DNA of 56,577 nucleotides from an uncultured Flavobacteriaceae bacterium. GTDB lineage: Bacteria > Bacteroidota > Bacteroidia > Flavobacteriales > Flavobacteriaceae. The stretch's first letter is position 1. Each line of letters starts with the position of its first letter. The position numbers were made by a program, and so were the translations under genes. Positions 28,725 through 45,692 of the stretch are shown one piece after another. The stretch spans positions 1 to 56,577 of the forward strand of contig CAMZLD010000048.1 of NCBI GenBank assembly GCA_947311635.1, in the 5' to 3' direction. Under the pieces are notes generated by a model, which saw nothing but the letters and a program-made list of their open reading frames with translations, ran no database searches and was not told where the DNA came from.

Positions 28725-29636
28725 TTAGTAATTCCACATATCGTGTTCTTTATTACGAATGTTGTCTCTAATTCTATCAGATTCCATGACTTGAAATAAA
28801 GCATTTCCACGAACATAGTCTTTTACTTCTCTATCGCCGTAGATATTTTCTTCTTTATAAATGATAGCATTAAACCTACGCGCATTCAACATATGGTCAA
28901 ATGATATTGGAAACGCAGAATTTTTTGGATTAAAAACTTTCATTTTATGCATTTCTTGACGTGCATTTGGGTACCAAACCCAAAACATGGCAAGTTTCTC
29001 ATTAATATCAACTTCAATGTCATCTCTTCCTAACGTATTTACGTCTGGCGCAACAGGAGCAACACCTAATAAACGGTATTTTAATTCTCCTTGACGTTTG
29101 TCAAAATACCAAAGTCCTTTAATTTTAAAGCCTTTAATATCTTGAGAAGTTAAATTATATTCATCAATACCTTCGCTAATATCTGCTTGCCCTTGATTAA
29201 TTAAATCAAATGCATAATCTGTGGTATCAATTCTAACAGCCTTATTTTTGATTTCGTCAAAAGATAATTTTTCTGTAAAATAGGAATCAGAATATACTTC
29301 TGTAATTTTACCTTGTTTAATACCTCTTAACAGGGTGTCAAATAAAGATCTTCTGTTAGCAGGGGCTGACGTTGAATCAATTGGATAATAGTAAGGTAAA
29401 TTTAAACGCTCATTTAAATCTATATATTCCCATGTTACTTTTGACCATAGTAGATCTCTATCGTCAATATAACCATATGGCAATGGTTGATCATTGTCTG
29501 CTGCCTTCTGCTGATCGGTCTTTACACCAACTTGATCAGGAGTTTGGGCATTTAACAAGTTTGATTGCGCTTCTATATTTTGCAAAGAAAATATAAAGAA
29601 ACTACTTACTAGGATACAATTTTTCCAATTCATCAT
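28725..29636 (-). CDS. gldN: Gliding motility / T9SS protein GldN
   Basis: Position after gldM; PLPYGYIDDRDLLWSKVTWEYIDLNERLNLPYYYP typical of GldN. Confidence 0.93.
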   Translation of the reverse strand: MMNWKNCILVSSFFIFSLQNIEAQSNLLNAQTPDQVGVKTDQQKAADNDQPLPYGYIDDRDLLWSKVTWEYIDLNERLNLPYYYPIDSTSAPANRRSLFDTLLRGIKQGKITEVYSDSYFTEKLSFDEIKNKAVRIDTTDYAFDLINQGQADISEGIDEYNLTSQDIKGFKIKGLWYFDKRQGELKYRLLGVAPVAPDVNTLGRDDIEVDINEKLAMFWVWYPNARQEMHKMKVFNPKNSAFPISFDHMLNARRFNAIIYKEENIYGDREVKDYVRGNALFQVMESDRIRDNIRNKEHDMWNY

Positions 29637-29644
29637 TTTAATTT

Positions 29645-31177
29645 TTATCTTATTTCAACATTTACTGGAGCTGCCGTTTTGATTCTATAACCTCCACCAC
29701 CTTGTAACGTAGATTTGATATCAAATATTGCAATTACATCTCCTCGTTTGGCTTTGTTGATAACACTTTTTGCTTGGGCGTTCATTCTTGAACCGCTTAC
29801 TTTAACAGTGGCTTGCCCCGGTACTTTTAATGAAAAACCTGTAGTTGTTAATTTTAAATCAAACACAAATCCTTCTAAAACTACGCCAACAGAAGTTTTG
29901 GCTAAACTAGCTTTTGGCATTTTAACCAAGCCTGTTTCTCCTCTAATAGATCCAAAAGGTTTTGGAATATCTTTTATTCTAAACTTTTTTGTAGAACTAA
30001 CAGGTGTGCCATCTGGTAATTTACCAGAAACTCTAATAGATACTTCTGTACCAGAACCAGGGTTCATAACATAACTACTACCACTTTTTCTTCTTAATCC
30101 AGAAGCAGAAGCTGTTACTTTATTAGATGGAATACCCGGAATTGAAATTGTCATTGGGTTTGAAACACCACGATAAACAACATTCATTTTATCTGCAGAT
30201 ATTACAGCTTCGTTTGGTTTTGGTATTACTGCATAGCCTCCTTTTATTGGAATTTCCACTAAAGAGTCTCCTTCTTTAAAGAAAAAACTTCCTTTTAAAG
30301 TATGGTCACCTACAGAACCTGCAGGACCATCTAAAATAACTTGACCTGCTTTGATTTTTTCTTTAGGCATGGTTCTACCATTTAAAACCACTTTCTCTGC
30401 AGTTAAATTTGGATCATTTTTCCCTAAGATAATTTTTCCTGACAAACGTTCTCCTGAATAATAAGCATTCTTTTCAAAAACAACCATAGCGTCGTAATTG
30501 GTCATAGAAACACTTTTAATTAACTCACCTTGCAACAGGGTAGATAAAGCATCTGCTTCTGTTGCTTTAATATCTGCTTGCATTTGTGTTAAATTAGTAA
30601 TAGATGCTACCATTGGAAAACCTTCATAATGATATTCTAACCAATCAACTTTTCTACCTTCTTTATTAGTTTCTTTACCTGTGTAGAATCTATCAGCTAC
30701 AGTCTTAGCTAAATCACTTCCAGCTAGTGTAGAACCAACGCTATCTCTATAAGTATTTATTTTAGAGACAAACTCTTTTCCTCTTTCAGAATGTTTACCA
30801 TCTTTAAAAAAGATTTCATCTAAAGGGTCTGTTTTATCCATAGATTCATAATCTAATGGATTCTCTACATGTCCTTTCAAATCATTTTTTAGAGTTTCAA
30901 TATACCCATAAAGATCATCAGACAATGTTTTAATTTTATCTGTTTTTACTTTAGCTTCACCGTATTGCTTTGCTTGTTCGGCTGCTTTCTCAGCTAATGT
31001 TGCATATGCAGCACTATTTGTTGCAGTAGCCTTTACATTTGCTGTTTCTAATTTTTTATTCATAAAACCAAAAGCTGATAACACTTCTTTACTCATATTC
31101 ATTGCTAGCATTGCAATAAATACCAAGTACATTAAGTTAATCATCTTCTGCCTTGCTGAAAGTTTTCCTCCTGCCAT
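29645..31177 (-). CDS. gldM: Gliding motility / T9SS protein GldM
   Basis: MAGGKLSARQKMINLMYLVFIAMLAMNMSKEVLSAFG N-terminus. Confidence 0.95.
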   Translation of the reverse strand: MAGGKLSARQKMINLMYLVFIAMLAMNMSKEVLSAFGFMNKKLETANVKATATNSAAYATLAEKAAEQAKQYGEAKVKTDKIKTLSDDLYGYIETLKNDLKGHVENPLDYESMDKTDPLDEIFFKDGKHSERGKEFVSKINTYRDSVGSTLAGSDLAKTVADRFYTGKETNKEGRKVDWLEYHYEGFPMVASITNLTQMQADIKATEADALSTLLQGELIKSVSMTNYDAMVVFEKNAYYSGERLSGKIILGKNDPNLTAEKVVLNGRTMPKEKIKAGQVILDGPAGSVGDHTLKGSFFFKEGDSLVEIPIKGGYAVIPKPNEAVISADKMNVVYRGVSNPMTISIPGIPSNKVTASASGLRRKSGSSYVMNPGSGTEVSIRVSGKLPDGTPVSSTKKFRIKDIPKPFGSIRGETGLVKMPKASLAKTSVGVVLEGFVFDLKLTTTGFSLKVPGQATVKVSGSRMNAQAKSVINKAKRGDVIAIFDIKSTLQGGGGYRIKTAAPVNVEIR

Positions 31178-31217: not shown

Positions 31218-31865
31218 TTAGTTTTTTGTAGACATTGCAGATAACATACCTCCATATACTCCGTTTAAAGAAGATAGGTTTGCAGCCATAGAAGCCATTT
31301 GCTCTTTTAATTTCCCTGCGTTATCAACAACAGCTTCATTAATTTCTGCTTGGCGACTTGCACTTTCTAATTGCACTTTATACAAGCTGTTTAAAGATTC
31401 CATTTGTGCAGCTGCCATAGTTAATTGCTCACTATATTTTGATGTTGCTGCAATTGAATCTACAGCTGGTTGAATATTTTTTGCAGCACCACTAAAATTT
31501 TGAATACTTGATGCTAAACTAGACATCATACCGGCATCTAATTTTGCTTCTTTTAACATGTTATCCAATTTTTGCGACAACATACTTTGTGCTTCACCTA
31601 TTTGCTTCGTTTCTTTAGCTTTGCTTTTACCACTTCCTAATTCTGGATATACTAAAGACCAATCTAAATCTTCTTCTGGTGGATCAAATGCAGAAACTGC
31701 AAATACAGCTGCTTCTACAAGAAGACCTATAGTTAACATCATTCCTCCTGTAATAGGACCAAGGCTCATATGCTGTATTTTAAACAATGCACCTACAATT
31801 ACTACTGCAGCTCCCATACCGTATATGAAATTCATTACTTTTTTCTTTGTTCTTGATTGTGCCAT
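31218..31865 (-). CDS. gldL: Gliding motility / T9SS motor protein GldL
   Basis: KKVMNFIYGMGAAVVIVGALFKIQH...GPITGGMMLTIGLLVEAAVFAVSAFDPP. Confidence 0.95.
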   Translation of the reverse strand: MAQSRTKKKVMNFIYGMGAAVVIVGALFKIQHMSLGPITGGMMLTIGLLVEAAVFAVSAFDPPEEDLDWSLVYPELGSGKSKAKETKQIGEAQSMLSQKLDNMLKEAKLDAGMMSSLASSIQNFSGAAKNIQPAVDSIAATSKYSEQLTMAAAQMESLNSLYKVQLESASRQAEINEAVVDNAGKLKEQMASMAANLSSLNGVYGGMLSAMSTKN

Positions 31866-31915: not shown

Positions 31916-33301
31916 TTATTTTCCTTCTAGATTTGTACCTAGATAATCTTGTACGGTTCTAAATCCGATGTAGCTTCTTGCAGAATCTGCATACTCCCAA
32001 TCTCTTGTACTTACTTCTAAGAAATAAGCAACATCTTTCCAAGAGCCACCGCGTATTACTTTACGTGTATTTTTTAAATCATCAACATTTGGACTTAAAG
32101 TTGACCCTAAGTAATACGATTCTGGATTGTATGCACTACCTGTCCACTCTGACACGTTACCTGCCATATTATACAGCCCATAATCATTAGGGTTATAAGA
32201 TTTTGCTTCTACAGTATACAAAGCGCCATCTGCTGCATAATCACCTCTTACGGGTTTAAAATTTGCTAAGAAACAACCTCTATCACTTGTTGTATATGCA
32301 CTACCCCAAGGGTAAGTACCAAAATCTAAGCCACCTCTTGCTGCATACTCCCATTCTGCTTCGCCAGCCAATCTAAAGTGAGGTACTCTTCCTCCATGTT
32401 TTTTTGAAGATAAGTAGTCGTTTTTCTTTTTTGTTCTCCATGCACAAAAAGCTTTTGCTTGATCCCAAGTTACTCCTACAACAGGGTATTCTTCATAAGC
32501 TTGGTGGTAAAAATAATCTTGATGCATTGGGTCATTATAAGAGTATTTAAAGTCTTTTACCCAAACTGTTGTGTCAGGATATATGGCTACCGTTTTATGC
32601 TTGATATAGTCTTTTCTATTCCCTTTATTTCTTGCTGCTGCTTCTTGATCTAACCAAGAGTATTTGAATTTTAATTTTCTGTAATCCATTATTCTTCTAC
32701 CGTCAAAACTTTCATCTAAAGGAATATACATAGAATCCATTACTTCTACATAATATTCATCTGGGTATTCATTTTTATCCCAAATCAATTCATTTTCCCA
32801 ATTTAAAGCACGCCCTTGTGTTGGCGAATCAATATCACCTAAACTTCCATAATTATCCATCATGTATTTTTCGTAGGCGGTCATATTAGATGTGTCTGTA
32901 GATTTAAATTTATAATCTACCAAAGGTCCTCCAGCATCTGAATCTGTAGAGGCTACATCACCTCCACCAGACATTTCATCTGCTAAGATTGCAAGCTTGG
33001 TACGAACGATTGAATCACGCACCCAAAAAACAAATTCTTTATACTCGCTATTGGTTATTTCTGTTTCATCCATATAAAAAGGACGTACTGTTACTGTTCT
33101 AGCTGGCGAGTTTAACGCACCTGCTACATCTTCATCTTGCTTACCCATTGTAAAAGAACCACCTGGTATCAACACCATACCATAAGGCTTTTCAGAGTTC
33201 CATTTGCTTTTTGAATGTGCTCCAACTAATTCTCCTTTGTCTTTGGATCCACAGCTTACCATAACTAAGGTAACTAAAAGAAATATTGCTATTTTATTCA
33301 T
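31916..33301 (-). CDS. gldK: Gliding motility / T9SS lipoprotein GldK (SUMF1/FGE fold)
   Basis: Lipobox VMVSCGS; PGGSFTMGKQDED; YPVVGVTWDQAKAFCAWRTKKKN; NVSEWTGSAYNPESYY; VIRGGSWKD. Confidence 0.95.
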   Translation of the reverse strand: MNKIAIFLLVTLVMVSCGSKDKGELVGAHSKSKWNSEKPYGMVLIPGGSFTMGKQDEDVAGALNSPARTVTVRPFYMDETEITNSEYKEFVFWVRDSIVRTKLAILADEMSGGGDVASTDSDAGGPLVDYKFKSTDTSNMTAYEKYMMDNYGSLGDIDSPTQGRALNWENELIWDKNEYPDEYYVEVMDSMYIPLDESFDGRRIMDYRKLKFKYSWLDQEAAARNKGNRKDYIKHKTVAIYPDTTVWVKDFKYSYNDPMHQDYFYHQAYEEYPVVGVTWDQAKAFCAWRTKKKNDYLSSKKHGGRVPHFRLAGEAEWEYAARGGLDFGTYPWGSAYTTSDRGCFLANFKPVRGDYAADGALYTVEAKSYNPNDYGLYNMAGNVSEWTGSAYNPESYYLGSTLSPNVDDLKNTRKVIRGGSWKDVAYFLEVSTRDWEYADSARSYIGFRTVQDYLGTNLEGK

Positions 33302-33389
33302 ATTTGTTTTTTTTCTTTTTTTTAAAAGTGCGTAAACGTATAATTTTTTTTACAAATACACAATGTTTACTATAATAATAAACACAAAA

Positions 33390-34550
33390 CTACTGAATTT
33401 TTTTTAATGTTTTATACCATAAATCTGGTAATTCTTGATTTGTGGCTTTTATGTAGTCTTGATATGTACAAGGTATTAACGCATGTCTTTTGTTTTTATT
33501 ATTTATTTTATAATTTATTTCCATCCACCACCTGCCACTTTTATGGCTTTTATAGAAAACATAAGTCTCTTTATCTATTGGAACAAGGTATTTTTTATAT
33601 TCTTTTTTACTTCCGAAGGGATAATCATTCGCTCTAAAATTAACGCCTTCTATAAAATACCAAATTATTTGTGCTATTAATTGCGCTGTTTGATTTTTGG
33701 TATCTTCTTTTGCATTGTACTCATAAATACCGAAAGAAGTTACTTTATCACTAATGCCTGCGTAACGTGCTAAAGCACAAACGGCTTCTCCATAAAAACC
33801 ATTTGGCGTAGCATTGTTATTTGCCGGCGCTTCACTAAAACGTAGTGCATTCAAGTTAACACTAACAATGTCTGCATTTCTTAAAATAGGCTCTGCTATT
33901 TCTGGCTGCTGTACTACTTCGCCTAAACGATAGGCATCAAAATACAGTTTGTCTATCAAATCTTTTTCTTCTTGCGAATTAAAAAATGTTTGATATCCGA
34001 TATTGGTAAAATTGAATAAGTTATTGGGCTTATTCATTACTATATGACTTAAATAAGATTGCGATGTAATGACCTCTTCAAAGCTTCCGAAGTTAAACTT
34101 ATTATCTATTGCCACAACATTAACGGTTTGTTCTAAGACATCATAGGCTCTATAATTGGTGTATAGTAAATCTTGACCTCCTCCTATTAGTATAGGTATA
34201 ATTTTTTGCTTCAATAAATAGGTAAGCACTTTTTGCAATGCAAAATAGGTGTCTTCTACTGTGGCTCCTTGTGTTAAATTTCCAAGATCTACAATTTTTA
34301 ATTGCCAATTGCCTTGATATAATTGATAAAGGTGTTTTCTAATTTCTGAAAAATCATTTCCTGTTCTTTCATTATCTATGGCTCTTCTTCCTTCTTCTAC
34401 AGCAATAATAGCCATTTTTACATTGTGCAATGCTGGCATCCCAAATTGCTGAGAATGAATGGCTATGTTTTTACCCAAGGTTTGCTTAGACAGCAACATA
34501 GTATGTGCAACAACACTATCTTGAACGGGGTTTAGAAAATCAAGATTCAT
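33390..34550 (-). CDS. Arginase/formimidoylglutamase-fold protein lacking canonical metal ligands
   Basis: IGGGQDLLYTNY, VVAIDNKFNFGS and DIVSVNLNALRFSEAPA occupy the positions of ureohydrolase GGDHS, DAHxD and SxDxDxxDP. Confidence 0.85.
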   Translation of the reverse strand: MNLDFLNPVQDSVVAHTMLLSKQTLGKNIAIHSQQFGMPALHNVKMAIIAVEEGRRAIDNERTGNDFSEIRKHLYQLYQGNWQLKIVDLGNLTQGATVEDTYFALQKVLTYLLKQKIIPILIGGGQDLLYTNYRAYDVLEQTVNVVAIDNKFNFGSFEEVITSQSYLSHIVMNKPNNLFNFTNIGYQTFFNSQEEKDLIDKLYFDAYRLGEVVQQPEIAEPILRNADIVSVNLNALRFSEAPANNNATPNGFYGEAVCALARYAGISDKVTSFGIYEYNAKEDTKNQTAQLIAQIIWYFIEGVNFRANDYPFGSKKEYKKYLVPIDKETYVFYKSHKSGRWWMEINYKINNKNKRHALIPCTYQDYIKATNQELPDLWYKTLKKIQ

Positions 34551-34552
34551 GC

Positions 34553-37054
34553 TTATTTCTTTTTAGCAGTGGTTTTTCTTTTGGTAGTTTTCTTTTTTGT
34601 AGCTTTTTTCTTAGGTGCTTTTTTTGCAATAATTTCTTTTACTTCTTCTAAGGTTAGTTTTGTAGCGTCTACCGTTTTTGGCAATTCAATTTTGATTTTT
34701 CCTTGTAGGATATTTGATCTTCCCCAACGCGCTTTTTCTACACGTATTCCTTCTTCTTCCCAATTATGAAGTACTTTGTCTATCTCTTTTTGTTTTTTAT
34801 CTTCTATAAGTTGTACAATATCATCGAATGTTAAATTGTCAAAATCATATTTTTTATTAACATTGATAAACATACCGTTCCATTTAATAAAAGGTCCAAA
34901 ACGACCAACTCCTTTTTGTACTGGCAATTCTTCGTAATGTGCTACTGGCGCATCTGCTTTTCGTTTTGCTTCAATTAATTCTATGGCTCTATCCATATCT
35001 ACTGCCATTGGATCTTCTCCTTTTGCAAGCGAAATAAATTTGCTATCATGTTTTATATAAGGTCCAAAACGACCGTTGGCCACAATAACTTCATTGGCTT
35101 GATAATCTCCTAAAGATTTTGGAAGCAAAAACAAATCTAATGCTTCTTCTAAAGTAATGGCTCCAAGAGTTTGATTTTTTTGAAGGCTGGCAAACTTTTT
35201 ATCCTCATCTTCTCTATCTCCAATTTGAACCATTGGTCCAAATTTTCCGAGGCGTACTAAAACTACTTTTCCTGTTTTAGGATCATTCCCTAAAATACGC
35301 TCTCCGCTTTCGCGTTCTGCATTTTCTTTTACATTTTCTACGGTAGGATGAAAATCGTTATAAAAATTTTTGATCATTTTAATCCAATCTTCTTTTCCTT
35401 CTGCAATATTATCGAAATCTGATTCTACTTTTGCAGTAAATCCAAAATCTAAAATATTAGAAAAATGGGCTACTAAAAAATCGTTTACAATAATGCCAAT
35501 ATCTGTGGGCGCTAGTTTTCCTTTGTCTGCACCAACAGTTTCTGTTAGTGTTTTACTAACTACTTTATTATTTTCTAATCGAAGCTGTGTGTAGGTTCTT
35601 TCTACACCTTCTACAACAGGTTTATCAACATAAGCTCTACGCTGAATGGTAGAGATTGTAGGTGCATATGTTGATGGTCTTCCAATACCTAGCTCTTCTA
35701 AATTTTTTACTAATGCCGCTTCTGTAAATCTAGCTTTCGATCTAGAATAACGTTCTGTAGCAGCAATATAATTGTAATCTAAACTTTCGTTAAGGCTTAA
35801 CTTCGGAAGCATTCCTGCTTGTTCTTCATCTTCATTATCTGTACCTTCGAGATACACTTTCAAAAAGCCATCAAATTTTATAACCTCCCCGTTAGCTGTT
35901 AAAATTTCTGAATTTTTAGAATTTTGAATACGCACATTGGTACGCTCTAATTGTGCCTCACTCATTTGTGATGCTATGGCTCTTTTCCAAATTAAGCTAT
36001 ACAACCTATCTTGATCATATTCTACAGAAACCGATTGAACACTCATATTGGTTGGTCTAATTGCCTCATGTGCTTCTTGGGCTCCTTTTGATTTTGATTT
36101 AAAATCTCTTGTTTTAGAATACGCCTCACCGTAAGAAGTTATAATGGCTTCCTTTGCTGCTTTTTTAGCATCGTTAGACAAATTTACGCTATCAGTTCTC
36201 ATATAAGTTATCAAACCTGCTTCGTACAAACGTTGTGCAACCATCATGGTTTTTGCTACCGGAAAATATAATTTTCTTGAAGCTTCTTGCTGTAATGTAG
36301 AAGTTGTAAAAGGTGGTGCTGGTGATTTTTTTGCTGGCTTTACTTGCAAATCTGACACACTAAAATTAGCACCATTACACGAGGTTAAAAATTCTTCTGC
36401 TGCTTTTCTTGTCGTAAAATTCTTTGGCAACTTTGCCTTAAATTTTTTACCATCTTTATTTAAAAATTCGGCATCTACTCTAAAACTTACTACACTTTTA
36501 AAGTTCTGAATTTCACGTTCTCTTTCTACAATTAATCGTACAGCAACAGATTGTACTCTACCTGCAGACAAACCGCCTTTTATTTTACGCCACAATACGG
36601 GCGATAATTCATAACCAACCAATCTATCTAATACTCTACGTGCCTGTTGTGCGTTTACCAAATTGTAATCGATACTTCTTGGGTTTTCTACCGCTTTTAA
36701 AATAGCACTTTTTGTAATTTCATGAAAAACAATACGCTTTGTGTTTTCGTCTTTTAATTTTAACTGTTCATACAAATGCCAAGCAATTGCTTCTCCTTCT
36801 CTATCTTCATCACTTGCTAACCAAACAGTATCTGCTTTTTTAGCCAAGTCCTTTAATTTCTTAACAGTTGCTTTCTTATCAGAAGACACTACATATTTCG
36901 GCATAAAATCTCCATCTACATTAATACCTAATTCACTAGAAGGTAAATCTGCAATATGACCAAAACTAGATTCCACTTGAAAATCTTTTCCTAAAAATTT
37001 TTCAATCGTTTTTGCCTTTGCTGGTGACTCTACAATAACTAAATTCTTTGCCAT
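34553..37054 (-). CDS. topA: DNA topoisomerase I
   Basis: KNLVIVESPAKAKTIEKFLG; GLITYMRTDSVNLS; Lys-rich C-terminus. Confidence 0.97.
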   Translation of the reverse strand: MAKNLVIVESPAKAKTIEKFLGKDFQVESSFGHIADLPSSELGINVDGDFMPKYVVSSDKKATVKKLKDLAKKADTVWLASDEDREGEAIAWHLYEQLKLKDENTKRIVFHEITKSAILKAVENPRSIDYNLVNAQQARRVLDRLVGYELSPVLWRKIKGGLSAGRVQSVAVRLIVEREREIQNFKSVVSFRVDAEFLNKDGKKFKAKLPKNFTTRKAAEEFLTSCNGANFSVSDLQVKPAKKSPAPPFTTSTLQQEASRKLYFPVAKTMMVAQRLYEAGLITYMRTDSVNLSNDAKKAAKEAIITSYGEAYSKTRDFKSKSKGAQEAHEAIRPTNMSVQSVSVEYDQDRLYSLIWKRAIASQMSEAQLERTNVRIQNSKNSEILTANGEVIKFDGFLKVYLEGTDNEDEEQAGMLPKLSLNESLDYNYIAATERYSRSKARFTEAALVKNLEELGIGRPSTYAPTISTIQRRAYVDKPVVEGVERTYTQLRLENNKVVSKTLTETVGADKGKLAPTDIGIIVNDFLVAHFSNILDFGFTAKVESDFDNIAEGKEDWIKMIKNFYNDFHPTVENVKENAERESGERILGNDPKTGKVVLVRLGKFGPMVQIGDREDEDKKFASLQKNQTLGAITLEEALDLFLLPKSLGDYQANEVIVANGRFGPYIKHDSKFISLAKGEDPMAVDMDRAIELIEAKRKADAPVAHYEELPVQKGVGRFGPFIKWNGMFINVNKKYDFDNLTFDDIVQLIEDKKQKEIDKVLHNWEEEGIRVEKARWGRSNILQGKIKIELPKTVDATKLTLEEVKEIIAKKAPKKKATKKKTTKRKTTAKKK

Positions 37055-44220: not shown

Positions 44221-44643
44221 TTACTTTCTATTATAATAAAAAGCGGGTATTAACAACAACACAAATAAAGGGTGAATGATAAACCTACGTAAATAAAAAA
44301 TCAATAAATATCCATGATGCACTCTATAATACAAAGCCACCAAAAATGAAATACTTAAAATAAAAAACATGAAGCCATAAAAAAACAAACTAAACTTGAG
44401 TATTGATTTCTTCTGAAATAAAACATAAATTATTGCCAAAGAAATTACAGCATTTAATAGATAACGAAAAAAATAATGCAACATTAATTTTGGTATTCTA
44501 AAAGGCGGAAAATCTTTTAACAAATAATCATTTTGAAAATATTCAATAAACGGATCATAAAATAAATCCTTTGCAAAAGCTCTAACCAAAATCAAAGCAA
44601 AAAACAAACTGCTTGCAATAATAATTTTAGTATTTCTACGCAT
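44221..44643 (-). CDS. Exosortase F system-associated membrane protein
   Basis: Overlaps the 3' end of xrtF; multi-pass; FYDPFIEYFQNDYLLKDFPPFRIPKLMLHYFFRYLLNA. Confidence 0.8.
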   Translation of the reverse strand: MRRNTKIIIASSLFFALILVRAFAKDLFYDPFIEYFQNDYLLKDFPPFRIPKLMLHYFFRYLLNAVISLAIIYVLFQKKSILKFSLFFYGFMFFILSISFLVALYYRVHHGYLLIFYLRRFIIHPLFVLLLIPAFYYNRK

Positions 44644-45181
44644 TATTTTTACTGTGTTTAGAAAATTTTCGAACCCAAATAACCCATAATAAAAATGTAA
44701 TTCCGTAAATAATTGCAGGAAAAACTAATTTATGCAATACAGATTGATACTCTGGGTATTTATATAGAAAAAGAGAAAGCAAAACAATTCTAACAATATT
44801 TACTAAATATATAATAAAGCTTCCGAAGATTGCAAACAAAAACGTTGTTAGTGCTTTTCCAGAAAATGCTATAATAAAAGATATAAACAAAATAATAATA
44901 CTAAAACCATTACAGCCTTCTATTACTTTTGCCGTTAATTGATTACCAACATAAATATCAACCGCCAATTCTTTATCATATTGTTTTACATTTAAATGAT
45001 ATCCTAAAAATTGCGCTAGTGATTGAGAATGCTGCGCAACCGTCTTAGTAATTGGAGCGCAAGAAAAAGGAACAACTTTTACTTGCGTTTTTTTAAGATA
45101 AACCGCATATAAAGCAAACAATAAGAAGTAGGTAACAAAAAATTTTATTAAAAATAAAATGATTGGCTTTTGTTGTTTCAT
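44636..45181 (-). CDS. xrtF: Exosortase family protein XrtF
   Basis: Putative catalytic Cys (VIEGCNGFSI), Arg (LVNIVRIVLLSL) and His (YQSVLHKLVFP) in TM context; start trimmed to MKQQKPIILF. Confidence 0.85.
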   Translation of the reverse strand: MKQQKPIILFLIKFFVTYFLLFALYAVYLKKTQVKVVPFSCAPITKTVAQHSQSLAQFLGYHLNVKQYDKELAVDIYVGNQLTAKVIEGCNGFSIIILFISFIIAFSGKALTTFLFAIFGSFIIYLVNIVRIVLLSLFLYKYPEYQSVLHKLVFPAIIYGITFLLWVIWVRKFSKHSKNNA

Positions 45182-45230
45182 AAGTAAGTGGTTACTTTTG
45201 TTGTTTGTCAAAAATACAAATAAAAAGCTC

Positions 45231-45692
45231 ATGCATCAGCATCAAAATAAAATTGACTCCATTTTCAAGAAAGATCTTTCGGTAGAAGACACTTTACAAG
45301 CGGTTTGTAATTATTTACAAAGATCAGTTCCTAACTATGATTGGGTAGGGTTTTACTTTAAAAATGGCAACAAAGCAGAATTAAAATTAGCACAATTTAC
45401 AGGCAAACCCACAGAACATATTATTATTCCCTTCGGAAAAGGAATTTGCGGGCAAGTAGCTGTTAGCAATCAAAAATTTGTAGTAGCAGATGTTACTGCA
45501 GAAGATAATTATATTTCGTGTGGCTTAGATGTAAAAAGTGAAATAGTAATCCCTATTTTTAAAAACGGAGAAAACATTGGGCAAATAGATATTGACTCAC
45601 ATACACGCAATGCATTTACAAAAAAAGATGTGCTTTTTTTAGAAAAATTATGCTCTAAAATTGAATTCTTTCTTTTGAATACAGCTAAGTAA
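45231..45692 (+). CDS. GAF-domain protein, free-methionine-R-sulfoxide reductase-like
   Basis: IIIPFGKGICGQVAVSNQKFVVADV...YISCGLDVKSEIVIPIFKNGENIGQIDIDSH. Confidence 0.85.
   Translation: MHQHQNKIDSIFKKDLSVEDTLQAVCNYLQRSVPNYDWVGFYFKNGNKAELKLAQFTGKPTEHIIIPFGKGICGQVAVSNQKFVVADVTAEDNYISCGLDVKSEIVIPIFKNGENIGQIDIDSHTRNAFTKKDVLFLEKLCSKIEFFLLNTAK

Follow-up and report, generated by a model that had tools for sequence, protein, structure and literature searches.

What is a protein with an arginase fold doing beside the motor operon gldKLMN? The question is raised by a 56,577-nt contig of an uncultured Flavobacteriaceae bacterium (CAMZLD010000048.1, assembly GCA_947311635.1), which was analysed over its whole length and is called the window below. 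We use P as a working name for the arginase-fold pseudoenzyme gene at positions 33390-34550 and for its product. The locus is laid out as follows.

34553-37054, minus strand: topA, DNA topoisomerase I (TIGR01051), 2 bp upstream of P
33390-34550, minus strand: P, arginase-fold pseudoenzyme of 386 aa (open reading frame, PF00491, AlphaFold2 model with fold search, membership of a clade with dead metal sites)
33630-34550, minus strand: arginase-like core of P, residues 1-307 (PF00491 over residues 70-299; Foldseek matches to formiminoglutamases)
33393-33629, minus strand: C-terminal domain of P, residues 308-386, predicted to be beta-rich with two final helices (alignments, AlphaFold2)
33302-33389, minus strand: gap of 88 bp between P and gldK, with room for a separate gldK promoter (from spacing)
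31916-33301, minus strand: gldK (TIGR03525 equivalog)
31218-31865, minus strand: gldL (TIGR03513 equivalog)
29645-31177, minus strand: gldM (TIGR03517 equivalog)
28725-29636, minus strand: gldN (TIGR03523 equivalog)

The reading frame of P begins with ATG, occupies exactly the interval listed and contains no internal stops. Pfam Arginase (PF00491) matched the protein at 53.5 bits against a cut-off of 22, which places P within the fold family, whereas the NCBIfam model for formimidoylglutamase HutG (TIGR01227) scored 75.6 bits, below its equivalog cut-off of 229.15. The predicted structure (AlphaFold2; pLDDT 93.5 and pTM 0.93 for the whole chain) shows an arginase fold: its top PDB matches by Foldseek were formiminoglutamases and a metformin hydrolase, with the Trypanosoma cruzi formiminoglutamase aligning at a TM score of 0.82 on the target (E about 1e-15). 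HutG (3m1r, 2a0m/4mxr) is thus the closest known relative by fold and profile, sharing the core layout and the alignment of all three motif positions. P differs from it in its subthreshold equivalog score, in the loss of the second metal site and in an added C-terminal domain. The arginase-like protein of Trypanosoma brucei, also counted among the nearest known systems, belongs to another, eukaryotic lineage. A strongly hydrophobic stretch was looked for in the P sequence and none was seen; the protein is presumably soluble and cytoplasmic.

An earlier note on this DNA had placed P directly upstream of gldK on the same strand, which the equivalog matches to GldK, GldL, GldM and GldN bear out, and had suggested a tie to type IX secretion (T9SS) and gliding. 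To see how far this arrangement extends, we compared neighbourhoods among relatives. The order topA-P-gldKLMN was found in 67 of 68 named Flavobacteriaceae 13-kb loci, which commonly also carry miaB and genes of the sigma54-type regulator and DAO types. Other families carry topA-P-porP/sprF-gldKLMN, so the linkage is old. It is not specific to gldK, because the whole block, topA and miaB included, is conserved, and because elsewhere in the class P adjoins unrelated genes (Peptidase_S13, FAD/2Fe-2S oxidoreductase, SIS-domain and RmuC genes). The adjacency noted earlier holds almost without exception in Flavobacteriaceae and recurs in other families but is absent in many others; scattering of homologues away from gldK, named by the note as evidence against its proposal, is seen in part, since P lies far from gldK in large parts of the class. 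Spacing is tighter on the topA side (median gap to P of 8 bp, n = 156) than on the gldK side (median 127 bp, n = 122), and P is most likely cotranscribed with topA. A separate gldK promoter was considered: 9 of 113 P-gldK gaps contained the complete Bacteroidota motif, against 1.9 expected, an excess too weak to support the claim.

P adjoins gldK, directly or with the T9SS porP gene between, in many families, and this speaks for a model in which P serves T9SS and gliding exclusively, as a scaffold or regulator working at the cytoplasmic face of the GldLM motor. The same reading draws on co-occurrence. With GldL, SprA and GldN as T9SS markers, 252 good-quality genomes of the class comprised 237 with both P and GldL, 6 with neither, 7 with GldL only and 2 with P only, a strong association in raw counts that ignore descent (Fisher p = 1.4e-7). 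Descent explains much of the co-occurrence. Of the six genomes with neither gene, G247 and G468 are small, three belong to family f79, in which a T9SS-bearing genus is likewise without P, and the sixth, G340, has matches to SprA and GldN.

P and T9SS also separate in both directions. GldL and SprA occur without P in G190, G482, G425, G320, G375 and G401 (clean) and in G241 (fragmented assembly), and four further genomes (G221, G222, G224, G225) have GldL and no P-clade match. Conversely, the 99% complete genome G451 encodes a full-length P of 394 aa, with HDKDDS at the ligand positions defined below, and searches of it for GldL, SprA and GldN returned no matches. G278 was not counted as a further genome without T9SS, since its copy of P sits about 470 bp from the end of a contig. 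In G002, a one-contig congener of G451, the matches to GldL and GldN are about 2 kb from each other on opposite strands, and SprA was not found; the genus may be in the course of losing T9SS. Hence the phyletic pattern of P does not match that of T9SS. What survives of the proposed tie is the conserved linkage to gldK; a role as a T9SS component is not supported, in view of the block-wide conservation, the tighter topA gap, the many lineages with P far from gldK and the two-way separation. A T9SS link of some kind may exist, given the widespread linkage and the gldL co-occurrence, and dedication to the motor appears unlikely.

Is the arginase-like core still an enzyme? In rat arginase numbering the six ligand positions are H101, D124, H126, D128, D232 and D234. 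H101, D124, D128 and D232 hold the first metal, and D124, H126, D232 and D234 the second (PMC6988801). Three segments of the window protein cover these positions.

34173-34175, minus strand: codon of Gln126, which replaces His101, a first-metal ligand (alignment; Gln in 157 of 181 clade members)
34092-34106, minus strand: DNKFN, residues 149-153, in place of DAHxD, with D149 kept, His126 replaced by Lys151 and Asp128 by Asn153 (alignment)
33849-33857, minus strand: NLN, residues 232-234, in place of DxD, with Asp232 and Asp234 both replaced by Asn (alignment)

By alignment, the positions are thus occupied by Q126, D149, K151, N153, N232 and N234; one of six canonical ligands (D149) is kept, and the binuclear site of a ureohydrolase is missing. 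The earlier note had read a ureohydrolase layout in an intact frame, with GGGQD, DNKFN and SVNLNALRF replacing the canonical motifs and about five of six ligands gone, and each of these points held. Gln126 is the least diagnostic of the changes because active enzymes vary at this position: the formiminoglutamases of T. cruzi and Bacillus subtilis have Asn there by alignment, and the active Zymomonas mobilis arginase has Cys (PMC6988801).

To determine whether the loss extends beyond the window, relatives of P were collected by searches at phylum, class and order level, and 181 distinct members were aligned. Three ligands are kept in 144 of them, four in 18, two in 11 and one in 8; no member has five or six. 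The window copy, with one, is an extreme case, and the loss across relatives, although clade-wide, is milder than in it. H126 is gone in 178/181 and D234 in 179/181, and since these two residues serve the second metal only, the second-metal site has been lost throughout the clade. The first-metal aspartates persist (D124 in 172/181, D128 in 163/181, D232 in 177/181), with all three surviving in about 90% of members, and position 101 is mostly Gln, with His or Asn also present. Lys or Arg occupies position 126 in 124/181, where its positive charge probably substitutes for the second metal. The two fast-evolving homologues of family f2 (L070, L071) have N, S, I, S, N and D at the ligand positions; gldK is absent within 6 kb of either, and topA is the next gene upstream in L070 but is separated from P by a few genes in L071.

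The retained aspartates, the presence of Gln, His or Asn at position 101, the tolerance of the first metal site for other ligands such as the Cys of the Z. mobilis arginase, and the many conserved polar core residues specific to the clade would fit an enzyme that is still active and catalyses a new reaction, at a site remodelled to use one metal or none. The core of P has conserved residues that the enzymes do not share, among them R55, F204, R208, P221, R224 and W297. Against continued catalysis, the second metal site is gone clade-wide, Asn replaces the ligands at both 128 and 232 in the window protein, Ser or Gly stands at ligand positions in other members, and position 126 varies freely, which is unusual for a catalytic center. 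In addition, an acidic residue typical of the paralogues (Asp in 84%) aligns with Gly at 274 in P. We consider a surviving enzyme improbable. The window sequence suggests that P binds no metal and would have no enzymatic activity, in agreement with the non-catalytic role proposed earlier, and relatives that keep the three first-metal aspartates may bind a single metal.

A dead protein of this fold can still serve an active one. MetCb is a bacterial pseudoenzyme of the arginase family in which five of six ligands have changed and no metal was seen; it acts as the partner of MetCa, which is encoded in the same gene cluster (PMC11271267). P of the window likewise lacks five of six ligands, its fold matches metformin hydrolase and the source genome has an active-looking arginase, yet strong evidence against a general role as a dead subunit activating or stabilizing an active ureohydrolase comes from nine near-complete genomes in which P is the sole PF00491 match (G099, G138, G404, G429, G451, G472, G215, G220 and G223, in a search that was not fully sensitive, since it missed some P copies), and a MetCb-like function is very hard to credit. 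The canonical arginase of the source genome is encoded at L243:2101-3060 (G000:C76, minus strand), with motifs SGDHS, DAHAD and SFDVD intact and with flanking genes that resemble citrate synthase and amidinotransferase genes when read by eye.

The tail of P sets it further apart. The extension beyond the catalytic fold, put at about 80 aa by the earlier note, is real and comprises ~79 aa (residues about 308-386). Its conservation equals that of the best core segments, and F332, S335, W341, W342, C361 and Y366 are near-invariant in the clade alignment. A structure prediction, which the note had recommended, gave for the isolated domain a putative beta-rich fold ending in two helices (AlphaFold2 pLDDT 79) that had no fold match. 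Neither a sequence profile search of the PDB nor a fold search (best E 0.76) returned a relative of the domain, and the window domain had no Pfam match; on these searches, membership of a known family was rejected. A free-standing version was sought in T9SS-bearing genomes lacking P and was not found. We take the C-terminal domain to represent an unreported family. Family f5 contains short or highly diverged homologues of P (L073-L076, 277-351 aa) in which the arginase core is badly eroded and the C-terminal domain is still recognizable; a GldK-like gene lies close to the homologue in L073, L075 and L076.

In 278 of 295 genomes drawn from the host's class a P profile found a match, a few of these probably to HutG only. 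A maximum-likelihood tree separated 72 pseudoenzyme sequences from 22 ureohydrolases of the phylum, the HutG-type paralogues included, by one branch (support 100/99), which makes a single origin of the P clade likely, short of proof because the tree was not rooted with an outgroup. Among the 22 ureohydrolases, 21 have the complete set of six ligands or carry the Asn substitution that active HutGs also show, the exception being L079, with Asn at 128. Pairwise dN/dS values for P (0.025 to 0.10, Nei-Gojobori) were in the range of those for GldK and TopA, and are only indicative because dS is near or above 1 in most pairs; they show P to be under strong purifying selection. Together with the clade-wide ligand loss, they rule out a pseudogene or recent decay. 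No plasmid-borne copies were found.

We infer, with a probability of roughly 60%, that P is a non-hydrolytic, soluble, cytoplasmic binding or regulatory protein, probably cotranscribed with topA, vertically inherited and ancestral or nearly so to its class. Under this explanation, an ancient formiminoglutamase-like protein would have lost His126 and Asp234, and with them the second metal site, Lys or Arg at 126 in most members probably replacing the charge of the metal and pairing with the remaining aspartates, and would have gained the C-terminal domain. The product could be a receptor that takes up a small molecule in the former active-site cleft, or it could act as a scaffold; its likely contact or output surface would be the C-terminal domain. 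The linkage to topA and gldKLMN would then be old gene order, and T9SS at most an indirect client. Because P is class-wide, under strong selection and equipped with an added tail domain, it probably has an undiscovered non-enzymatic job beyond the secretion motor. A more specific version, in which P is a class-specific, near-universal housekeeping protein, built from a dead ureohydrolase and a new C-terminal fold, that serves as a cytoplasmic sensor or adaptor connecting DNA topology or nitrogen/arginine status to the neighbouring envelope machinery, is speculative and, in our view, quite unlikely to be correct.

Arginase-fold pseudoenzymes have been known from scattered cases, and among those compared here only MetCb has a stated function. 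In the Fusobacteria ODC/arginase, cited in PMC11271267, the arginase domain has diverged to loss of function, by the title of that work in oral-associated species; P, by contrast, is dead throughout the members of the class surveyed, an arginase-fold pseudoenzyme kept under strong selection through most of one bacterial class. Among the papers accessible to our literature search, none was found that describes P or ties it to gliding or T9SS. Because arginase and HutG models are what P matches best in the libraries, it could easily be misnamed as an arginine- or histidine-degrading enzyme. In the gene set of a major class P is a clear gap that can be put to the test. It stands beside a heavily studied motor operon, and mutant studies of gldKLMN should watch for effects on this neighbour. 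The window also encodes a second envelope-sorting system, exosortase XrtF with its associated membrane protein (44221-45232, minus strand; TIGR04128, TIGR04127).
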